From positions 124,001 to 188,000 of the forward strand of contig BJGZ01000001.1 of NCBI GenBank assembly GCA_014191195.1: DNA of 64,000 nt. The letters run 5' to 3'. Every line of letters starts with the position of its first letter. The stretch's first letter is position 1. Positions 20,316-61,634 of the stretch are shown one piece after another. This stretch comes from Chlorobiota bacterium (GTDB lineage Bacteria > Bacteroidota > Ignavibacteria > Kapaibacteriales > UBA961). Both the position numbers and the translations under genes were made by a program. Below the pieces are notes generated by a model. That model was given only the letters and a program-made list of their open reading frames with translations, was not told the origin of the DNA and made no database searches.

Positions 20316-22286
20316 TTAGCGTGGAGTTTCTACATAAATCTGCACAGTTCTAGAAAGTAGACGTCCTGTAGCAATATCATTATCAAAAATTGGAACGTCT
20401 TCACCTCTACCAAATGCTTCATACATTGCATCAGGGATTTGTGTTTGAAGTATATCTCTTACTGCATTTGCTCTGTCGGTAGACAATGTCTTATTGTAAA
20501 GATCCGGACCAATTTTATCTGTATATCCAAAAATTTTAACTTTTGAATTCCCTTTAATAGCCGGAGTAACAAATTTCTTTAAGATTGCAATATTCTCCTC
20601 TGGAATATCTGATTTATCAAAATCAAATAAAATCAATGAGAATTTTGAAACTGTCATATCTGCTCTGGTTTCTACAGAATTCATTAGGCTGGCCCTATAT
20701 TCTACAGGGATTGATCCACTAGTATCAGCTTTGCCACCTGCGGTATTTATAGCAGTTAATGTATAATCAATTGGCACTTGTGAATTTGATAATTCATTAG
20801 GACGTATTACCCAACGTTGAGCAGTTGGCGATCCTATGCCTACATATTCACGTAAAGTACGGCCTGCTTGAGATATGGACAATGTCCAAGAAGATATAGT
20901 AGAATCTGGAACTTCAATTGGACGAAATTCTAGCATTTCTGGCTTTGCAATTCTGGTTCCATCGCCTTTTATCATAATAGGTTGTAGAATTTCGCTTGAA
21001 TTAGATTTAAAATCTACTCTACGATTTTCTACCATTCCATCTTCTATATTTAATGCAGAAGGATTTTCTGGGACATTTCTATTTTCTGCGCCGATTCGGT
21101 CTGCTGCAATACCAAAATTACTGGTTAAATATGTCTTGGCATATTGTGCTCTGCGTAATCCTAATCCTTTGTTTTTAGCTTCAGTTTTTCCATCGGTAGT
21201 GCCAATACACACAAGTGTTGCTTCGGGATTATCTATCAATCTTGTTCCAATTACATCTAAAGTTCTTTTATTGATTTCAATTGCATCTTGAGGTAATGCC
21301 TCTAAAGTAAATTTACCTCTTGCATCTCCAGCATTCATATACTGCATTGTTTCATCTGGTTTATCACTATTTGCTTTGAAAAATATATATGGAATAAAAG
21401 GAAATAACTCTGTGTATTGAATATCTTCAACTCTGATTCCATTAATATCAAGTTTTTTATAAGCACCACCATCCTCATAAGAACCTATGCTTTCTATACC
21501 AATTTTTGGTGCTAGGATTATTTCAGGTTCTGTTTCATTTGGCCCAAGCTTAATTGCAAATCCAATACGAATTTGATCTACATTCCATGTTGATAATACA
21601 GAGCTTATATTATTTATGATACTTTTACGATAACTGATTTCTGGTGTAAGTTGATATCCATAAAAATCAAGCGGAATTCCAGCACCAATAATAATTCCAT
21701 ATCTAGCTGATGCCTCTGGAATATTTATATCGGTTGCATACACTTTATTAGAAAAAGAAGCATTCTGAATATCTGCTGCTTCACTATGCTGATATGTAGC
21801 AGATATTGGAAATCCTAACTCAATACCTGTAAGAAGATAAGCTTGGCTATTTTCAAAAAGATTATTGATTTTAACAGTAGGAGAAATTTCTAAAGTAGCA
21901 ATTGAAGATGCAAAAGTATGAGTAGTTGCAATAGTCCCAACACCCGCAGATGTGTCTGGCTTTGTATCCTTTGCCGATAAATCCGCACCTAAGCCCTGTA
22001 TTCCAATGCGTCCTGATAAAGTAAATCGAGGTGAAAGGTCATAATTAAATATAAATCCACCATGAAAACTTAAAGAAGTATTATTGGTATTGAATATTAT
22101 GTCTTTACTTAATGGTGCAGCATTCCCTGTGCCGCTATCAATTGGAAAATTAGGGGTGTGAAAATTATAATTAATACCACCATAAAGACCAAAATCAAAA
22201 CCAGAATTTTTGGATGATTTAGTTTGTGCTGTTACATTAATTACTAAACATAAAACTGAAACTATTGCTAAAATTATGGACTTCAT
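20316..22286 (-). CDS. OmpA-family outer membrane protein with two OmpA-like domains
   Basis: The 656-residue protein has a signal peptide (MKSIILAIVSVLCLVINVTAQ). An N-terminal barrel-like region follows to about residue 260. Next come an OmpA/MotB-like module at about 330-430 (FTLEALPQ... ENRRVDF) and a second at about 547-655 (ILFDFDKSDIPE... GYTDKIG... LSTDRANAV... SRTVQI). Between them is a strand-rich linker. OmpA-like domains bind peptidoglycan diaminopimelate, so the protein probably ties the outer membrane to the wall. Two such modules in one chain are unusual; the second is the better match to the consensus. Single-gene unit with its own terminator. Confidence 0.85.
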   Translation of the reverse strand: MKSIILAIVSVLCLVINVTAQTKSSKNSGFDFGLYGGINYNFHTPNFPIDSGTGNAAPLSKDIIFNTNNTSLSFHGGFIFNYDLSPRFTLSGRIGIQGLGADLSAKDTKPDTSAGVGTIATTHTFASSIATLEISPTVKINNLFENSQAYLLTGIELGFPISATYQHSEAADIQNASFSNKVYATDINIPEASARYGIIIGAGIPLDFYGYQLTPEISYRKSIINNISSVLSTWNVDQIRIGFAIKLGPNETEPEIILAPKIGIESIGSYEDGGAYKKLDINGIRVEDIQYTELFPFIPYIFFKANSDKPDETMQYMNAGDARGKFTLEALPQDAIEINKRTLDVIGTRLIDNPEATLVCIGTTDGKTEAKNKGLGLRRAQYAKTYLTSNFGIAADRIGAENRNVPENPSALNIEDGMVENRRVDFKSNSSEILQPIMIKGDGTRIAKPEMLEFRPIEVPDSTISSWTLSISQAGRTLREYVGIGSPTAQRWVIRPNELSNSQVPIDYTLTAINTAGGKADTSGSIPVEYRASLMNSVETRADMTVSKFSLILFDFDKSDIPEENIAILKKFVTPAIKGNSKVKIFGYTDKIGPDLYNKTLSTDRANAVRDILQTQIPDAMYEAFGRGEDVPIFDNDIATGRLLSRTVQIYVETPR

Positions 22287-22485: not shown

Positions 22486-22563
22486 CTATTTTTTTGAAGG
22501 TATTACTTTGATATCAGTACCTAATTTTTGAAGATATGATATCAAGGCAATGATTTCTTTGTC
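22486..22563 (-). pseudogene. ccoO/fixO-like C-terminal remnant
   Basis: On the minus strand a 26-codon segment, in the frame +1 to tag, reads a peptide containing ALISYLQKLGTDI and ends at a TAG. That string resembles the C-terminus of the cytochrome c subunit (CcoO/FixO) of cbb3 oxidases. It has no start or upstream coding sequence in this frame and overlaps the last 22 bp of tag. It looks like the end of a lost ccoO gene left beside tag. The match is short and from memory, so chance is not excluded. Confidence 0.45.
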
Positions 22564-23105
22564 CAGGCAGGTTGATATTGAAGAATAATATCATACATCG
22601 GACATCCCTGATGATGTGCCCCGGGTAAATAACCTGTGCTCATTAAGAATTCATTAACAATCTCGCCCCCGGTAAATCTAAAATTCTGTTTAAATAGCAA
22701 TGTCCACTCTTTTCTTGTTTTTAGATGATGTATATCTAACCAAGATTTAAAAGATCCCCATTCATTTTGTATTTCCCTGATTCTTTGAGCATTATAAATA
22801 GCAGCTTTGATTTTTAACTGATTTCTGATGATTCCAGAATTTTGTAAAAGCCTTTCAATATCTGATTCATTATACTGAGACACTGTATAAATATCAAAAT
22901 GATCATATGCTTCTATAAAATGTTGTTTTTTCTTTAGTATTGTTAACCAAGACAAACCAGCTTGATTGATTTCAAGTATCAATCGACCAAATAATTCATT
23001 ATCTGCTTCTAATGGAAAACCATATTCACTATTATGATAATGAGTATGAAGATGGGATATTCCAGCTTGTTGAATATAATTGCAATATGTTTTGTTATGT
23101 TCCAT
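22542..23105 (-). CDS. tag: DNA-3-methyladenine glycosylase I
   Basis: Tag removes 3-methyladenine from alkylated DNA, starting base-excision repair. The 187-residue protein keeps the zinc ligands of Escherichia coli Tag: Cys8, His24 and the His-x3-Cys pair in GAHHQGC near the C-terminus. It also has NQAGLSWLTILKK and GIIRNQLKIKA. The start codon is only 10 bp beyond a terminator hairpin, whose T-run covers the place for a ribosome-binding site. Its final codons overlap a ccoO-like remnant. Both edges suggest that the gene arrived or was reshuffled here. Expression may depend on read-through of that terminator. Confidence 0.92.
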   Translation of the reverse strand: MEHNKTYCNYIQQAGISHLHTHYHNSEYGFPLEADNELFGRLILEINQAGLSWLTILKKKQHFIEAYDHFDIYTVSQYNESDIERLLQNSGIIRNQLKIKAAIYNAQRIREIQNEWGSFKSWLDIHHLKTRKEWTLLFKQNFRFTGGEIVNEFLMSTGYLPGAHHQGCPMYDIILQYQPAWTKKSLP

Positions 23106-52363: not shown

Positions 52364-54757
52364 CTATTCTTTATTGATATATGGAATTGTTAATGTTCCA
52401 TTTTCTGTGATTATCATAAGATAAAATGCCCCTTTTTGATGATCACCTGTTTTAAATTCGATTGTATGTTCTCCCATTAGATAATCTATTGGGCCTTTAC
52501 TCATTATTGTTCTACCAGTTTCATCGTAGATTTTACATGTTATTCTCTGTGACTTATGGACAGTAAGTGCCAGATGTATTATATCTGTTGTATAATTATT
52601 AGCTGTAGTTAATGTTGCAGTAATATCCTTATCTAAATCCCCATACATGATAGGTTGTTTAAATACAACTCTTATGGGTTTAATTGAAGTGTATCGCATC
52701 ATTCTTGCATTATTACCAAATTCGATGCTGCCTGAAATACTAGTTTCACCTCTTCTACCAAATAAAAATATACCGTCTATCATACAAAAATCACCTGCAT
52801 TCATATACCCATTTATACATTCGCCGTTTATAGACAAAGTGCCTGGTGAAACTATAGTCCAATCTGTTATTACTAAATTGGGGGAAATATTCTTACCATT
52901 AGATTCATCACTTTTTGACACCTGTAATGGCCTAAAATAAGCGGGATCATACTGTATAGTTGCATGAAATTTGCTGCCTCCAATATCTTGAGGATTACTT
53001 GTACTTGTAAGAACTATTCTTGAAGTATCAAATAAATGTACTTGTAAAGAATCTTGAGTAAATGGAGAAATGCTTCTTCTAAAACCTAGTGAACCCGATG
53101 ATCTTCTCGGTATAGATTCATCGCTATTGTCACAAAAGCTAGATGGTCCTGGATCACACATCATTAAATTCCATGGGCCTTCATCTGCCTTAATTCCAAA
53201 TTCATATATAGTATGAACTTTATCAGACATCAATGGAGATTTACCAAAACCAAATTTTCCTCCTTTTACTAATAGAGTATCACTAGAAACATCTTTTCCA
53301 TTAAGAAATACTTTTATTCCTTTTTTCACGCTATGATACACATATATTCCCCAATGTTGTTTGCCATTTCCTGTAAATAATTCAAAAAGGTTATAGCAAT
53401 TTTGCATATCAGGTTCTTCTATTCCTAATATCCAATCATTCAATATGTATAATGTCCCATTACAATAATCTGCATACAAATTAGACCATCTGCCAATTGC
53501 TGGTTTGGATTTAGACCACTCATGCTCTGGCTTTGGATAATTTGTAAAGCTGCCATCAATAGTATGTGGCGCGGCTATACAAGAAATTGTTTCCGAAGGA
53601 GATCCAATCATTCTAAATGTTGATTGGGCACCCAATGTTCCGCCAAATGTATTCGGCTCTGTAGCAAGCCCTGCAACCCCAGCTCTTGAGATATATCTTC
53701 CATCTTCTTTTAGAACCATTCCTCCCTTATATAAATCCCCATGAAAATAAGATGGATCTCCAATCAAACCATAGGTTGAGGTATCATTACATACAGTACT
53801 TACTCCATTTGGCCTAACTGGATCACATAATTCAGGGAAGAAAAATCTGCCTGGCTTTACTTTAATCCCAAATTCATAAATGGTATGCGGAAGTTTGTGA
53901 AGTGGAGATGAATGAAAGCCTGCTTTTCCACCGATAACATAATTAGTGTCTTTTGTTACATTTACATTATTCCTAAAGACAATTGTCCCTTTATATGTAC
54001 TGTGATAAACCCTGATATTCCAAGTTTCTTCTCCATTTGCTGTATAAAATGTAAAGAGATTATAGCATGTTGTGTCTGGATTTTCAGTAGCTAAATACCA
54101 ATCATTTAATAAATAAAGGATTCCTTTTTCATCACAATAATCCATATATAATTCTGAAAAACGTCCGTTTAAATGCATGATTCCAGACCATTCTTTTCTA
54201 TCACCAGAAACTGAATCTGTAAACTTCCCATCAATTTTATGAAGTAAACTACATTCTATTTTGGGCTCATTCCCATAACCTCCTGATGGATTATTTACTT
54301 CGCTACCCCTTTCTTTTCCTTTTGGGTTTTTCCCAGCTTCTACAGAATCTCCATATTGCTTTTTTGGGTCTGGTTCATTGCCATCTGCATATGAATCTGT
54401 ATCTGTGTTTTCTTTAACAATAATTTTTGTTGAGCCTGAATCTCCATCATTGATGCGAAAAGAAATGATATGCTCACCTGGTTTGGTGTTTTCTGGTACC
54501 TTGCATGTTATTAGACAATGCGTTGCTGTTATGATATCTATTGTTTGATTGTCAAATTTTATTGAATATTTACTTTTAAAATCAAAGTTTTTAAAATCTG
54601 CTAAGAAGCACCCTGAGTTTTTGGTAATCGATATAATTGTTCCCGGTACAGCCTCTTTAGGAAAGGCTTGAATTGATATTAACTTTTGTGCTGTAATTAT
54701 AGTAGGCAAAAAGTAGCATATACATATCAAGCAATACAGTACATATTTAGATTTCAT
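52364..54757 (-). CDS. secreted protein with a tandem 139-residue domain duplication and probable T9SS sorting end
   Basis: The 797-residue protein has a signal peptide. A small Ig-like domain (about 25-115) and a Pro/Gly/Lys-rich linker follow. Two copies of a domain lie at about 174-312 and 398-536; each has IDG-x-F, ADYC or MDYC, LNDW, ENPD/EEPD, CYNLF and HTIYEFGIK in the same order. The last 70 residues have the Y-D-E-x-G-R and G-A-F-Y pattern of type A T9SS C-terminal domains. I do not recognise the duplicated domain. Last of three co-oriented secreted-protein genes. Confidence 0.7.
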   Translation of the reverse strand: MKSKYVLYCLICICYFLPTIITAQKLISIQAFPKEAVPGTIISITKNSGCFLADFKNFDFKSKYSIKFDNQTIDIITATHCLITCKVPENTKPGEHIISFRINDGDSGSTKIIVKENTDTDSYADGNEPDPKKQYGDSVEAGKNPKGKERGSEVNNPSGGYGNEPKIECSLLHKIDGKFTDSVSGDRKEWSGIMHLNGRFSELYMDYCDEKGILYLLNDWYLATENPDTTCYNLFTFYTANGEETWNIRVYHSTYKGTIVFRNNVNVTKDTNYVIGGKAGFHSSPLHKLPHTIYEFGIKVKPGRFFFPELCDPVRPNGVSTVCNDTSTYGLIGDPSYFHGDLYKGGMVLKEDGRYISRAGVAGLATEPNTFGGTLGAQSTFRMIGSPSETISCIAAPHTIDGSFTNYPKPEHEWSKSKPAIGRWSNLYADYCNGTLYILNDWILGIEEPDMQNCYNLFELFTGNGKQHWGIYVYHSVKKGIKVFLNGKDVSSDTLLVKGGKFGFGKSPLMSDKVHTIYEFGIKADEGPWNLMMCDPGPSSFCDNSDESIPRRSSGSLGFRRSISPFTQDSLQVHLFDTSRIVLTSTSNPQDIGGSKFHATIQYDPAYFRPLQVSKSDESNGKNISPNLVITDWTIVSPGTLSINGECINGYMNAGDFCMIDGIFLFGRRGETSISGSIEFGNNARMMRYTSIKPIRVVFKQPIMYGDLDKDITATLTTANNYTTDIIHLALTVHKSQRITCKIYDETGRTIMSKGPIDYLMGEHTIEFKTGDHQKGAFYLMIITENGTLTIPYINKE

Positions 54758-54786
54758 TTTTTATTCACCCTTAAAAAAGAAAAAAA

Positions 54787-54811
54787 AGGCCATGATGATG
54801 ATTCATGGCCT
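54787..54811 (-). terminator. intrinsic terminator after the first von Willebrand A protein gene
   Basis: AGGCCATGA and TCATGGCCT form a 9-bp stem with a 7-nt loop and a T run on the minus strand. It lies between the gene ending at 54818 and the gene starting at 54757. Confidence 0.85.
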
Positions 54812-54817
54812 ATATAT

Positions 54818-56683
54818 TTATTTAGCTATCACCATTTTTTTGCTGACATTCATTCCATTTATAGAAATAACAGCATGATAAATTCCCTGCGCCAAAGATC
54901 TAGTATCAATATTTAATGAATATGTACCAAATTCTTTCATACCCTGTGATACCGTCATGATTGTTCTACCCATATTATCATTTACTGTAATCAATACATT
55001 GGAATAATAAGGTACTTGATATTCTAATGAAGAATTTCCATTGCTTGGATTTGGATATGGATCTGATACTGCAAAAGCATCTTCGGTGTCTTTAGTATCA
55101 TTTTTGTCGAAATCAATGCCAACTGAAACTGGTCTGCAACCCAAAGAATCTACTGGGTATTCTATGGTTTTGGCTAATAATTTCCCATTAAATGGATAAT
55201 AAATAGTGATTTTACGCATTGTGCCAGGTTTATCATTTATATCGCAAGGAGGTGCATTATAATAAATAGTACAGCATTCATCTTTTGTAATTTCTGATGT
55301 CAAAGATCTATAAATAGAATCTAATTTTCCAGCAAAATCAACTTTGAATAATTTACCATTTGTTCTAAATGCTATACCTTTTAGATAGTTTAAGCCATCT
55401 ATACTTTCTTGCGATGAATCTAAACCTAATGCAATAATATAGACAGGGATATTATATGTTTTAACTGCATCTAAAGCAGCAAAAACAGAGAAGCTATCTG
55501 GAGGACGATTATTAACGCCATCGGTTAAAATGACAATTGCTTTTTTAGCATTATTAATATTTTTAACAGCATCAATACCTGTAATTAAAGCAGCATTAAA
55601 TGCAGTCCAACCTTCGGGATTTAATTGATTAATAGCAGTTCTCATTAAACTAGTATTCGTTGTCCAATTAAGATCTGTGCTTACAGTATCAGAAAATGAA
55701 ATAATTGTTGCAGAATCACCCTGTTTAAATTGATCAACAAATAAATTACCCGCTCTTTTAGCAGCATCTATTCTAAATGTTAAGTCATTTTCTGAAATAG
55801 GATAGGCCATACTTCCGGATCTATCGAAAATCATTGCAACTGCAATATTGCTTCTTTTTAATCCTGTTTTGCATACTACAGAATCTGGACAATAAAACAT
55901 CCCTTTGTCATATACAGCAAGGCGATTATCATTCGTAACCATATCGTTTTTGACACCATTTGCAGAATTTGTGTCTTCAATTAATATAGAAGTGTTAACT
56001 CCAATTTGTATAGTTCTTTTGATAGTATCAATCATGGTCATTTCTATACTATCGCAAATATTAAATCCAGGCTTTATTTCTTCAACAAGTACTGTTAATT
56101 CCCCTTCATTGTCTGAATTAACACTTACTTTTTTTTCTAATACATAAATATATATTGAGTCAACAATTTTAAATGAGAACTTATTCCCATTACCTTTCAC
56201 ATCGTTAACCTGATATCTATGTGAGATATCATCTACAGATTTGACAAGAGGTTGTCCTTCAAATCTAAATCCACAATCATGAAAAGGAATGACTTTAACA
56301 AAAGATTTATCAAACATTTTATTGTCCCAATAAATATCTTGTTTGAAAAAATATATTTGCTTAGGCATGCTTTCTACAGTTTGACCTTTGGAATTTACAA
56401 TGTCTTTACCTGGCCAAAATTTTGAACCATATACTGTATTTGGTATATCATATATACAGACAGCATCTGCATTATTTGTTAACTGGTCTGACCACATTCG
56501 ATATGTTCCAGTAACTGTAATTCTATAAAATTTCTTTGGATCAGTTACTGAAGTTGTTTGATACGTTTTGTCGTTCTTTGAACTAACTTTTATTGTTTCT
56601 GGAAACTGGGCATAATTTGTAATTGCTGTTAAGCATATTAAAAAAACTAAACCCAATAATTTTGTACATCTATGATAAAACAT
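54818..56683 (-). CDS. secreted von Willebrand A-domain protein with T9SS sorting domain (paralogue A)
   Basis: The 621-residue protein has a signal peptide and an N-terminal module containing YRITVTGTYRMW. A von Willebrand A domain follows from about 278, with the MIDAS motif Asp287-x-Ser289-x-Ser291, a Thr in GWTAFNAAL and Asp in ILTDG. The C-terminal type A sorting domain starts at PYPNPSNGNSSLEY and ends SKKMVIAK. Von Willebrand domains bind ligands through a metal ion, so a surface or matrix role is likely. A paralogue with the same layout starts 39 bp beyond the far end of this gene. Confidence 0.85.
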   Translation of the reverse strand: MFYHRCTKLLGLVFLICLTAITNYAQFPETIKVSSKNDKTYQTTSVTDPKKFYRITVTGTYRMWSDQLTNNADAVCIYDIPNTVYGSKFWPGKDIVNSKGQTVESMPKQIYFFKQDIYWDNKMFDKSFVKVIPFHDCGFRFEGQPLVKSVDDISHRYQVNDVKGNGNKFSFKIVDSIYIYVLEKKVSVNSDNEGELTVLVEEIKPGFNICDSIEMTMIDTIKRTIQIGVNTSILIEDTNSANGVKNDMVTNDNRLAVYDKGMFYCPDSVVCKTGLKRSNIAVAMIFDRSGSMAYPISENDLTFRIDAAKRAGNLFVDQFKQGDSATIISFSDTVSTDLNWTTNTSLMRTAINQLNPEGWTAFNAALITGIDAVKNINNAKKAIVILTDGVNNRPPDSFSVFAALDAVKTYNIPVYIIALGLDSSQESIDGLNYLKGIAFRTNGKLFKVDFAGKLDSIYRSLTSEITKDECCTIYYNAPPCDINDKPGTMRKITIYYPFNGKLLAKTIEYPVDSLGCRPVSVGIDFDKNDTKDTEDAFAVSDPYPNPSNGNSSLEYQVPYYSNVLITVNDNMGRTIMTVSQGMKEFGTYSLNIDTRSLAQGIYHAVISINGMNVSKKMVIAK

Positions 56684-56721
56684 ATTATTACCCTATGTCT
56701 AAGTATTGTTAATGATTATTA

Positions 56722-58659
56722 TTATTTCTTTTTGAAAATTTTCTTTCTGAAGATATTTCCATTTGCTTCGATGGCTATATCATACACACCAGGCTTTAAT
56801 CCTTTTAACTCGATATTTGAACTATATATACCTGGTATTTGATTAAATTCCTGAGTATTCATTACCTTTTTTCCTGAAGCATCTAATACATATAGTTTGA
56901 TAAAGGCGGAATGTTTTAGTTCATAAGAAATAGAGGCAATATCATAACCAGACACAAAAATTGGTTTTTGGATAATGATTGGAGAAGTAGAATTCATCAA
57001 GCCCTTTTCTGTATCTTTTTTATCTATTTCCAGACGTTTAACAATAATCACTTTTGTTAAAATTGAATCACCCAATGGATAGAAAATTGTTATTGTATCT
57101 TCAGTTGTTTTAGAGGAATCTTGTTGAAAATCAACTTTGATAGTGCAACATTCATCATCTGAAATTTCTATTTTTATTTCATTATATATACTATCAATGG
57201 CTTTAGCATTGTTTGCATCATAATATTTTCCAAAAGATATTAATGAAACCATTCTCAATGAATCTTTTTGACGAATTTCTAATCGTTCTAATTCTGTCAA
57301 ACTTGGATCTGTGATCACCTTTTTATTGCTTAAACCTAATCCAATCGTATAAATTTTAAGCCTTCCATAAGTAGGAGAAGAAATAATATCATGAAGTTTT
57401 TTATAATCAGAGCCATCTTTATATAGATTATTATACCCATCTGTTAATACAATGATTGCTTTATTTTGTTTGTTAATTTCTTTCATTTTGTCAATTGCTT
57501 TAATAACTGCTTCGCAAAAAGCTGTTTGCCCCTTTAACACTTTACTTTTATCATAAATAGCATTTACAGCATTTTTCAGTTGAGTGGTATCGCCTGTCCA
57601 ATTTCTATCAATTGTTACATCATCCGAAAATGTCATTAAAAACGCTGTGTCACCCTTTGTCATTTTACCGATAAATGAATTGCAAGCAATTTGTGCAGAT
57701 TCAATTCTATTTTTCGTTAACCCTTCTTTTGTGCTATCAAGAATTGCCCCCATACTGCCAGATCGATCTATGATTAAGCCTACCCCAAAATTTTTCCCTG
57801 GTGCTGTACAATCTATTTTATAAGGACAATAAAATCGTCCATTCACATTAATCCCCAATGGTCCTTTATGTTCATCAGATTTTGTTGCATCAAAATCTTT
57901 TAAAAGGTTCTTCTTAATTGTCCCATTATTTTGATTAATTTCTAATAAAGCTGCCCCAAACTTAAAGCCAATAATTTTTTTAGTAATTGAATCTATTAAT
58001 GTTATTGGATTTCCACATACATCAATAGTTGTACTAGATAATTCCTCTACTGTAACTTTTATTTGCCCTGAATTATTCGAATAATATGCTCTTGGCCCCT
58101 TATCCTGATTTAAATAATCTATCAAAGAATCAATAATCTCTAAAGCTAGTGGTTTGTCTGCACCTTCAATATTTAAAGTATAGCTATGTGATGAATTATA
58201 ACCAGAATTCGGAAGAGGATTTCCATCGATTCTAAAGCCTGTCCACTTATTAAAATTATATGAACAAATTAATGGCTGTAAAAACTCAAATTGTTTTTGA
58301 AGATAATTTGTTGTGTCACCAACCCATTTAGGCAAAACACATACATCATATGTATTTGAATTAAATGTAATCCTCTCTGGTGGCCATCGTAATTTTTCAA
58401 GTTCATCTTGTGGTGCTTTATAAATATATGCTCCATCAATCCCCGTACTATCCACTGTGTTCCACATTGAATAAGTTCCCTGAACAATAACTCGATACCT
58501 TTTTCCCTTTATTAAGGTATCTGTAATAACTTTATTCCCAAAAGTATTTGCCCTTACAATGTAATCCTTCTTTGCCTGAGCAAAGATATTGCTTGTGCTA
58601 CAAAAAGCACTGCAACAAATAAGTGCGACCAAGAAATATCGCAGTAAAGCATAATGCAT
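56722..58659 (-). CDS. secreted von Willebrand A-domain protein (paralogue B)
   Basis: The 645-residue protein mirrors paralogue A: signal peptide, YRVIVQGTYSMW module, von Willebrand A domain with MIDAS Asp298-x-Ser300-x-Ser302 and VLTDG, and a C-terminal domain ending GIYSSNIELKGLKPGVYDIAI. This end resembles a T9SS sorting domain but is more divergent. The ATG at 58659 follows an in-frame TTG at 58665. It probably shares a transcript with paralogue A, 38 bp downstream. The pair looks like a tandem duplication. Confidence 0.85.
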   Translation of the reverse strand: MHYALLRYFLVALICCSAFCSTSNIFAQAKKDYIVRANTFGNKVITDTLIKGKRYRVIVQGTYSMWNTVDSTGIDGAYIYKAPQDELEKLRWPPERITFNSNTYDVCVLPKWVGDTTNYLQKQFEFLQPLICSYNFNKWTGFRIDGNPLPNSGYNSSHSYTLNIEGADKPLALEIIDSLIDYLNQDKGPRAYYSNNSGQIKVTVEELSSTTIDVCGNPITLIDSITKKIIGFKFGAALLEINQNNGTIKKNLLKDFDATKSDEHKGPLGINVNGRFYCPYKIDCTAPGKNFGVGLIIDRSGSMGAILDSTKEGLTKNRIESAQIACNSFIGKMTKGDTAFLMTFSDDVTIDRNWTGDTTQLKNAVNAIYDKSKVLKGQTAFCEAVIKAIDKMKEINKQNKAIIVLTDGYNNLYKDGSDYKKLHDIISSPTYGRLKIYTIGLGLSNKKVITDPSLTELERLEIRQKDSLRMVSLISFGKYYDANNAKAIDSIYNEIKIEISDDECCTIKVDFQQDSSKTTEDTITIFYPLGDSILTKVIIVKRLEIDKKDTEKGLMNSTSPIIIQKPIFVSGYDIASISYELKHSAFIKLYVLDASGKKVMNTQEFNQIPGIYSSNIELKGLKPGVYDIAIEANGNIFRKKIFKKK

Positions 58660-59413
58660 AATCAACCCATTATTATATATAAAAATATGTTACTAGTATT
58701 TGCTAATTCAAGCTTGTTATTATATCAGCAAACAGCTGTTCCACTATAAGTGTTCTGTAAAAAATTAAATGTCAAAGTAAAACCCTGTACCACCAACCGT
58801 ATGTTTTTTTATCTGTTATTTACACTACAAACATATAATGTGCCAAAACAAATAATACTAGGTAACAAAACATTTAATAAAAACAAGAATATTATCTAAT
58901 ATATTGATATATAATGACTTAAGCTTTTTAGTTAAATTTCTTAGTATTAGAAGTGTTTAAGTATTGATTAAGTGATTGCTACGATATTGATCTATAATTT
59001 TACCTAAAAATGAGGCTACGTAGTGTATTGAAAATTCCACACTTTACACATTGTTTACAGGGTGAATACATTCATATTTACAGATCAAGAAGAAGTAAAA
59101 AATAAAAAAGGTATTAATGTAAAAAAATTGTGCAATTATTCTTTATGTGGATACGTCATAGGCACAACAGTTCATGAAAAGTGATCGATTTTTAAAACTG
59201 CATGCTTTTTTGGTGGATTATTATTGAAGATGTAAGGAACAGCGCATTGATTTGTCTGTGCATATAGATGAAGTATACACCAATACAGATTCATTATTGA
59301 TAATTGAATTGCTCCCGCTTCCCACCTTTTCACCATCACGAAGCAAAAGAATGTTGAATCACCACACTTCATTCATGTAGAGTTTCAATTATTATCTTCT
59401 GATAAGATATACA
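58660..59413. other. long AT-rich gap; only a doubtful broken frame
   Basis: The stretch is AT-rich and holds no gene I can support. On the plus strand a frame from ATG 59174 runs 17 codons to a TGA and then stays open for about 50 codons, to a TAG near 59378; on the minus strand a 66-codon frame covers part of it. Neither shows a domain. It probably contains the upstream region of paralogue B. Confidence 0.3.
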
Positions 59414-59477: not shown

Positions 59478-59912
59478 TTATTTTTTTGCAATTTTTCTAA
59501 TCTTTTTCACATCTGCTTCAGAAACAATTCCGCCATTATTTCCCCAGCTATTAAGTACATAAGTAATAACAGAGGCAGCATCTGCATCTGTGTATTTAGC
59601 AGGCAATGACGTCATAACATTATTAAACTTTTTGCCATTTACAGTGATTGCACCTTTTAAACCATTTGATACATTGTCAATAATGGTTTTAACACCTTTT
59701 GTTTTGATATAATCAGAACCTGCCAAAGGAGGATAGACAGTTGATAGACCTTGCCCGGTAGCCTGATGACATGTTTTGCAGTATTCATTGTAAACAGCGC
59801 CACCACGTTTCATCAGAGCGGCTTTATCTGGTGCTGCAGCTTTTACTACAAACAGAGAACAAAAGATTGCAATAAGGGCAATCGGAGTAATTTTTGAATA
59901 ATTTCCGAACAT
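59478..59912 (-). CDS. exported monoheme cytochrome c
   Basis: The 144-residue protein has a signal peptide and one heme motif, Cys-Lys-Thr-Cys-His, at about residues 46-50. It also has class I features downstream (YPPLAGSDYI and an axial-Met candidate in the VMTSLPAKYTD segment). It would carry electrons in the periplasm. It lies just downstream of decayed cbb3-oxidase genes, so it may once have belonged to that cluster; it is itself intact. Confidence 0.9.
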   Translation of the reverse strand: MFGNYSKITPIALIAIFCSLFVVKAAAPDKAALMKRGGAVYNEYCKTCHQATGQGLSTVYPPLAGSDYIKTKGVKTIIDNVSNGLKGAITVNGKKFNNVMTSLPAKYTDADAASVITYVLNSWGNNGGIVSEADVKKIRKIAKK

Positions 59913-59945: not shown

Positions 59946-60122
59946 CTATTTTGAATTTCTAGAATTATCTGGTACACAGCAAGAATGATGCTTGTTTGTT
60001 TGTAAACTATTTTGACTTGTATAATTTTTTGTCATATTGATAGTAGAAGGTAGAATTGGGCTTATATCTGGTATGCCCAAAGCCAAACCTCTTGTGATAA
60101 ACAAGATTGCGATAGTAATAGT
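59946..60122 (-). pseudogene. 3' fragment of a SafE/TauE-type membrane protein gene
   Basis: A 58-codon frame on the minus strand reads a peptide with ILFITRGLALGIPDISP and a late HHSCC, ending at TAG. The ILFI-x-RGL-x-LGIP-x-x-SP string closely resembles the last helix and C-terminus of the SafE/TauE-like proteins that follow ccoG-ccoH in Bacteroidota cbb3 clusters. The first three-quarters of the gene is missing. It joins the ccoG fragment at 60125 out of frame (+2). Confidence 0.6.
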
Positions 60123-60124
60123 TG

Positions 60125-60223
60125 CCTAGCATAAATCCATTTTCTACTACCATCAATAGCTATGCTTGTAAGTTCATTTTGATATTTTTCTATATCATGT
60201 TCTGGTAAGTTTATAATCGACAT
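60125..60223 (-). pseudogene. 5' fragment of ccoG (cbb3 oxidase assembly ferredoxin)
   Basis: An ATG at 60223 sits 7 bp after a strong GGAGGGA site. The first 33 codons read a peptide containing NLPEHD, LTSI and GSRKWIYAR, in the order found at the N-terminus of CcoG/FixG in Bacteroidota. The match then stops, and the next bases read as the SafE-type fragment in another frame. Translation in the ccoG frame would end after 53 codons. No ferredoxin motifs remain. It looks like a deletion scar. Confidence 0.6.
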
Positions 60224-60371
60224 AGTGTAATCCCTCCATGAATTACATAATGTGATACATTTAAAAAACTAAGACATTACAAAAATCTTTGGTTTTCCCG
60301 CTGTTAACAATGATTTTTGTCATATTGCATTGCAATGTTATTACTATACCATCAATTTGTTGGAAAAATAC

Positions 60372-61634
60372 ATGAATAAAGCTCCTTTCACTTTATTACT
60401 TGCTGAATCTTTAGGGATTGATGCACGATTATATCCTTTCACGATTACACATTCATCGTGGGAGCTTTTTGCTGGATGTAAAAGAATATTTGAAATATAT
60501 AAAGATGGGATGTCTGGATTTTCTTTATGCTATGCCGGTAGACTATTACAAAAACAGTCTTTTTTTGAGCAGGAGCACATCATACAAAATATGATGGATA
60601 CTTTTCAAAACCCTGTTTTAGTATTAAGAGCAGAGATACTTCCTGAACAAACATTGATGCTAAATTTGCGCAGAATGGCCATTGATGGCTCTCAATCTTT
60701 TCATATTACTGATACCAATAATAACACTATTGGTATATATCTGGTGAATACATCTGAGATTAATGAAATAGATCAATTTGCTCCTAGCTTTGAAGAAATA
60801 ATTGCACATGTACAACTTGATAGGCTTCCTGTATGCTCATTATCTGTTAAAAGAATAGATTATGTATGGCAAATAATTCCTGAATTACAACAGATGATAG
60901 AAGAGACATCTTTTTCTTTTAAAAAACCAGAATTACAAGATATCCCTGATCATATTTTTTGTTTACATAAACATAATATTATACTTGGTGAGCAAGTGAA
61001 ATTGATGCCAGGAACTGTATTGGATGCTTCTGAAGGACCTATTATCATGTGTGATAATGTTCAAATAATGCCTCATTCATTTATACAAGGCCCCTGCTTT
61101 ATTGGAAAAAACAGCATTATAAAAGCAGGCTCTCAGATTTATGGAAAAACTGTTATTGGCCCTTTTTGTAAGATTGGTGGCGAAATTGAAAATTCAGTTT
61201 TTCATGGTTATAGCAATAAACAACATAGTGGTTTTATTGGGCATTCTTATATTGGAGAATGGGTGAATTTGGGTGCTTTGACAACAACTTCAGATTTGAA
61301 AAATACATATGGAAATATAGAAGTATCTGTGCTGGGCAGAAAGATCAATACTAATATGAAGTTCTTGGGTCTTATTTGTGGAGACCATACCAAAACAGCA
61401 ATTGGCACATTGTTTTCAACAGGAACGATTATAGGTGTTTGTTCTTCGATACATAAACCTAATGTTCAACCATCAAAAGAAATTCCATCTTTTTCATGGG
61501 GTGAAAAAGGGATTCAATATATGTTTGAAAAGGCTATTCAAGTAGCAGAAATAGTGATGGCTAGAAGAGGGAAGGCATTGACAGAAGCGCATATCTCTAT
61601 ATTGCAATCAGAATATAAAAAAAGCTCATATTAA
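60372..61634 (+). CDS. GlmU-like putative sugar nucleotidyltransferase
   Basis: The 420-residue protein starts with FTLLLAESLGIDARLYPFT (a degenerate nucleotidyltransferase domain) and runs to about residue 190. A left-handed beta-helix of hexapeptide repeats follows (about 215-370; I-x-G-x-x and GPC-F-I-G-K-N-S-I). This is the GlmU-like family common in Bacteroidota, lacking part of the classic nucleotidyltransferase motifs. It probably transfers acyl or nucleotidyl groups to sugars for envelope synthesis. The ATG at 60372 is preferred; one at 60330 adds 14 residues. It is divergent from the ccoG remnant. Confidence 0.85.
   Translation: MNKAPFTLLLAESLGIDARLYPFTITHSSWELFAGCKRIFEIYKDGMSGFSLCYAGRLLQKQSFFEQEHIIQNMMDTFQNPVLVLRAEILPEQTLMLNLRRMAIDGSQSFHITDTNNNTIGIYLVNTSEINEIDQFAPSFEEIIAHVQLDRLPVCSLSVKRIDYVWQIIPELQQMIEETSFSFKKPELQDIPDHIFCLHKHNIILGEQVKLMPGTVLDASEGPIIMCDNVQIMPHSFIQGPCFIGKNSIIKAGSQIYGKTVIGPFCKIGGEIENSVFHGYSNKQHSGFIGHSYIGEWVNLGALTTTSDLKNTYGNIEVSVLGRKINTNMKFLGLICGDHTKTAIGTLFSTGTIIGVCSSIHKPNVQPSKEIPSFSWGEKGIQYMFEKAIQVAEIVMARRGKALTEAHISILQSEYKKSSY

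Follow-up and report, generated by a model that had tools for sequence, protein, structure and literature searches.

Why does the start of ccoG run directly into the end of safE? The window, by which we mean the whole stretch of 64,000 nucleotides analyzed here, carries such a stub at 59946-60223 on the minus strand. An initial annotation read the stub as the scar of one deletion, recording either the loss of a high-affinity oxidase or a relic beside a working copy elsewhere. We conclude that it is almost certainly a real deletion scar and part of a genome-wide removal of the cbb3 oxidase (CcoNO and CcoP, with the helpers CcoG, CcoH, CcoI, and SafE) from four loci dispersed over the genome. 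At least three scars mark the recent loss of the whole cbb3 oxidase in a small-genome bacterium that kept one other oxidase.

The ccoG-safE junction and its neighbors

The locus contains the following features, identified with the help of related genomes (G002, G003, and G005) in which it is intact.

59478-59912, minus strand: small cytochrome c gene, intact, just downstream of the stub (PF00034, 4e-10)
59946-60125, minus strand: safE remnant, last ~54 codons plus stop, in a frame different from that of the ccoG remnant (tblastn with G003 SafE)
60122-60223, minus strand: ccoG remnant, opening 34 codons, with conserved start and ribosome-binding site (tblastn with G003 CcoG)
60231-60237, minus strand: GGAGGGA, ribosome-binding site of the lost ccoG, which precedes intact ccoG in G002, G003, and G005 too
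60305-60323, minus strand: conserved 19-base element ATGACAAAAATCATTGTTA between glmU and ccoG, exact once in the window
60372-61634, plus strand: glmU-like gene, the divergent neighbor that anchors the locus (TIGR03991, 7e-98)

The ATG at 60223-60221, seven bases beyond GGAGGGA, opens 34 CcoG-like codons that read MSIINLPEHDIEKYQNELTSIAIDGSRKWIYARQ; the frame then shifts into ATITIAILFITRGLALGIPDISPILP... and continues to a stop at 59946. When searched against the whole window by tblastn, CcoG of G003, a member of the same genus, had its sole match at 60223-60122 (67.6% over 34 amino acids, E 1.5e-9), and SafE of G003 matched 60125-59964 (44% over 54, E 9e-8). Neither protein had any match at E<=1 in the reversed window, which served as a decoy. 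Identification of the fragments required same-genus relatives, because Pfam and NCBIfam searches of the bare fragments recognized nothing; the intact SafE of the relatives matches PF13386 at about 1e-46. Thus, the translated comparison bore out both the CcoG-like start with its ribosome-binding site and the SafE/TauE-type C terminus first proposed from the letters alone, with one correction: clear CcoG sequence extends through codon 34, not 33. The reading frame is discontinuous across the junction, and the stub joins a 5' gene fragment to a 3' fragment of a different gene, as in a deletion-derived pseudogene.

The parent arrangement is preserved in the relatives. G002, G003, and G005 carry an intact ccoG-ccoH-safE-cytochrome c block beside glmU, flanked by the same neighbors as the scar (ccoG about 472 amino acids, ccoH 146, and safE 245-246), and the window is collinear with G003 across nearly the whole stretch compared. 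Because the intact block lies between the same neighbors in all three genomes, a deletion from within ccoG to within safE is the simplest account, and the initial proposal that most of ccoG, ccoH, and most of safE were removed, leaving a stub beside an intact cytochrome c gene, is supported. The two points joined in the window are separated by 2346 bases in G003. A deletion of ~2.3 kb would have taken the 3'-terminal ~93% of ccoG, the whole of ccoH, and the 5'-terminal ~80% of safE. One event probably made the junction; the single step and the exact breakpoints are judged from relatives more distant than the sister genome, G004, whose contig begins inside glmU and so stops short of the ccoG-safE place.

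The fused stub might instead be retained for function, either as a small peptide or as a leader for the cytochrome c gene. Indeed, neither the start codon nor the ribosome-binding site has been damaged, both frames remain open, and the cytochrome c gene comes directly next on the same strand. A recent deletion, however, would also leave open frames. Moreover, G001 and G006, also of this genus, have the cytochrome c gene without a stub, and the fusion is found in no relative examined (G004 is unassembled at that place). We consider a retained function highly unlikely and favor a deletion scar. The cytochrome c gene itself persists in members of the genus with and without cbb3 and is not evidence for cbb3, because G001 and G006, where no cbb3 gene was found, retain it too.

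Two other features of the neighborhood deserve mention. A 12-base core of the 19-base element lies at the same place in the window's genome (G000), G001, G002, G003, G005, and G006, and the element survives even where ccoG is wholly lost. We rejected it as a cbb3 regulatory site: among the loci compared, the core occurs only beside glmU and not at ccoNO, ccoP, or ccoI, and thus the element cannot be tied to cbb3. It is probably a promoter of glmU and/or downstream genes. Separately, the window has three large secreted-type genes between nuoK and the cytochrome c gene (52364-58665), two of which contain a von Willebrand-like stretch (DRSGSM). The loci of G001, G002, G003, G005, and G006 are without these genes at that place.

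Oxidase inventory and the other scars

Does a working cbb3 oxidase exist elsewhere in the genome? G000 comprises 2.41 Mb in 29 contigs and is estimated to be 100% complete, and genome-wide absence rests on family searches. These searches of G000 gave no match to CcoG (Fer4_18), FixO, FixP, FixH, or SafE (DsbD_2) and found no intact ccoNOPGH cluster elsewhere; a search for cytochrome bd oxidase also found none. The single COX1 grouped with the CtaD-type oxidase of relatives, making it caa3-type and the only heme-copper oxidase. CcoN/CcoO, CcoP, CcoG, CcoH, and full-length CcoI, which a functional cbb3 oxidase would be expected to include, are all missing. FixO, CcoG, and FixH all occur in an identical set of 11 among 21 genomes, and absence calls are weaker for the incomplete G004 (85%) and G002 (86%) than for G000, G003, and G006. 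That cbb3 genes are scattered over several loci in this genus would suit a relic beside a working oxidase, but with five families absent from a genome estimated complete and a lone COX1 of caa3 type, we regard a working copy as extremely unlikely. Of the two outcomes foreseen in the initial annotation, loss of a high-affinity oxidase is the one that holds.

The second scar lies at the ccoNO site, also within the window.

20316-22286, minus strand: ompA-like gene, other flank of the ccoNO site (52% to its G003 counterpart next to intact ccoNO)
22486-22563, minus strand: ccoNO remnant, final ~24 codons through to the stop, in a frame other than that of tag (syntenic place; DKEIIALISYLQKLGTDIKVI compared with the CcoNO C terminus)
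22542-23105, minus strand: tag (3-methyladenine DNA glycosylase-like), terminal codons from out-of-frame ccoNO (60% to G003 Tag until the junction)

In G003, ccoNO is positioned between ompA and tag. The remnant matches the CcoNO C terminus at 71% over 21 amino acids (E 7e-4 in the whole window), and Tag in the window ends in TKKSLP, derived from the out-of-frame ccoNO sequence.

The third scar, at ccoI on contig 9 of G000, could be compared with the sister genome. Exactly 2183 bp are missing relative to the intact 813-amino-acid gene of G004, the flanks of the two genomes are 94% identical on both sides, and a 4-base repeat, TTCT, is common to both ends of the deletion. The first ~84 codons are left, and two cysteines near the N terminus are lost. 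The remnant has a dN/dS of 0.40, compared to 0.05-0.16 in three neighbors, a small sample with 16 differences in the fragment.

Finally, ccoP adjoins porV in G003, G004, and G005 but is absent beside porV in G000, where homology with G004 begins just upstream of porV. There, contig 18 (1-1379) carries unrelated sequence encoding a thioredoxin-like secreted protein in the place where the sister has ccoP. Because unrelated sequence occupies its place, ccoP may have been replaced rather than simply deleted. We also note that G003 encodes a 133-amino-acid protein with cysteines and histidines just before a receptor-like gene (contig C3, 56261-56662). It has no match in the window, the gene being either lost or diverged in G000, and any connection with copper is conjectural.

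As G000 is a multi-contig assembly, each junction could in principle be a chimeric join at which the assembler dropped real genes. The dropped genes, however, are on no other contig, the ccoI join carries a 4-base repeat such as a biological deletion would be expected to leave, and separate scars at three loci plus the loss of ccoP all concern one functional set. An assembly artifact is therefore exceedingly improbable, and we return to genuine deletion. The deletions may have arisen by illegitimate recombination at short repeats, of which the direct sign is at ccoI. The cbb3 system was removed piecemeal, locus by locus, and because its genes and helpers went as a set though not in one operon, the losses are better attributed to an end of selection on the function than to one chance event. 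Selection to keep the cbb3 genes would have ended if, for example, oxygen was rarely scarce in the habitat or the genome was under reduction.

Timing and probable parallel loss in the genus

When the losses occurred can be judged from the sister genome. G004 retains intact ccoP and full-length ccoI in stretches syntenic with G000, and therefore both losses postdate the split of the two. At the ccoNO site, the last 14 bases of the G004 contig are still in the CcoO frame, past the position at which the G000 sequence passes into tag. We rejected a shared loss there: the end of the contig stays in the CcoO frame and diverges from G000 at the junction, so an unassembled stretch of G004 probably still holds ccoNO.

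G001 and G006 lack the cbb3 genes as well, and no remnant of them was seen at the places examined. A tree of eleven concatenated genes resolved the three groups of the genus, as a tree of CtaD alone did not. It placed G001 and G006 with the cbb3-bearing G002, G003, and G005 and not with G000 and G004 (bootstrap 93-100), and a single clade of cbb3 losers was rejected (AU p 0.019). Independently of the tree, the loss of ccoP and ccoI in G000 is separate from that in G001 and G006, because G004 has both genes.

The initial annotation expected the cluster order ccoNO-ccoP-ccoG-ccoH-safE. Other genera of the family indeed keep ccoNO-P-G-H together, but this genus holds ccoGH-safE at a locus of its own, one of four over which the cbb3 genes are dispersed; thus, the cluster broke up before the losses. 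We think it likely that in one genus of the Kapaibacterium group, a four-locus cbb3 system disappeared entirely on at least two parallel occasions and that the window's genome shows the state shortly after one of them, when three scars are still readable and the sister keeps intact ccoP and ccoI. If so, the order and speed of dismantling of a multilocus complex could be read directly from close relatives.

Comparison with known systems

How the cbb3 genes are arranged varies among bacteria: many have them in a cluster, whereas Campylobacter jejuni, among others, has them dispersed (PMC8267372). CcoI and CcoG supply copper for cbb3 assembly, and in C. jejuni, deletion of ccoI nearly abolishes and deletion of ccoG reduces cbb3 activity (PMC8267372). 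Relative to the C-type set ccoNO(Q)P-ccoGHIS, the intact relatives are alike in encoding fused CcoNO, CcoP, CcoG, CcoH, CcoI, and SafE, whereas in the window's genome, every such gene is missing or fragmentary. Both the copper-dependent, high-affinity oxidase and the proteins that assist its assembly were lost as a set. Our literature searches found no report of this cbb3 loss.

The reduced-genome CHUG roseobacters offer a parallel, as close reduced-genome lineages differ in cbb3 beside a low-affinity oxidase, aa3 in CHUG, and experiment showed that aa3 alone and aa3 plus cbb3 differed in oxygen affinity (PMC9426536). There, however, ccoGHNOPQ is present or absent as an operon, whereas the window's genome lost four loci separately, with scars. 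By analogy, high-affinity respiration should be gone from the window's organism, and we predict that it respires poorly when oxygen is very low, unlike G003-like relatives, which would respire well under these conditions.

The scars also resemble pseudogenes made by deletion at short direct repeats, with truncated ends joined out of frame and a 4-base repeat at ccoI; they differ in that the ccoG-safE repeat, about GGCAAC, is a guess. Ultimately, gene loss by deletion is commonplace, but the documentation is unusually good here: within one functional set, independent scars can be read together with the parent arrangement and with a close sister in which several genes are intact.
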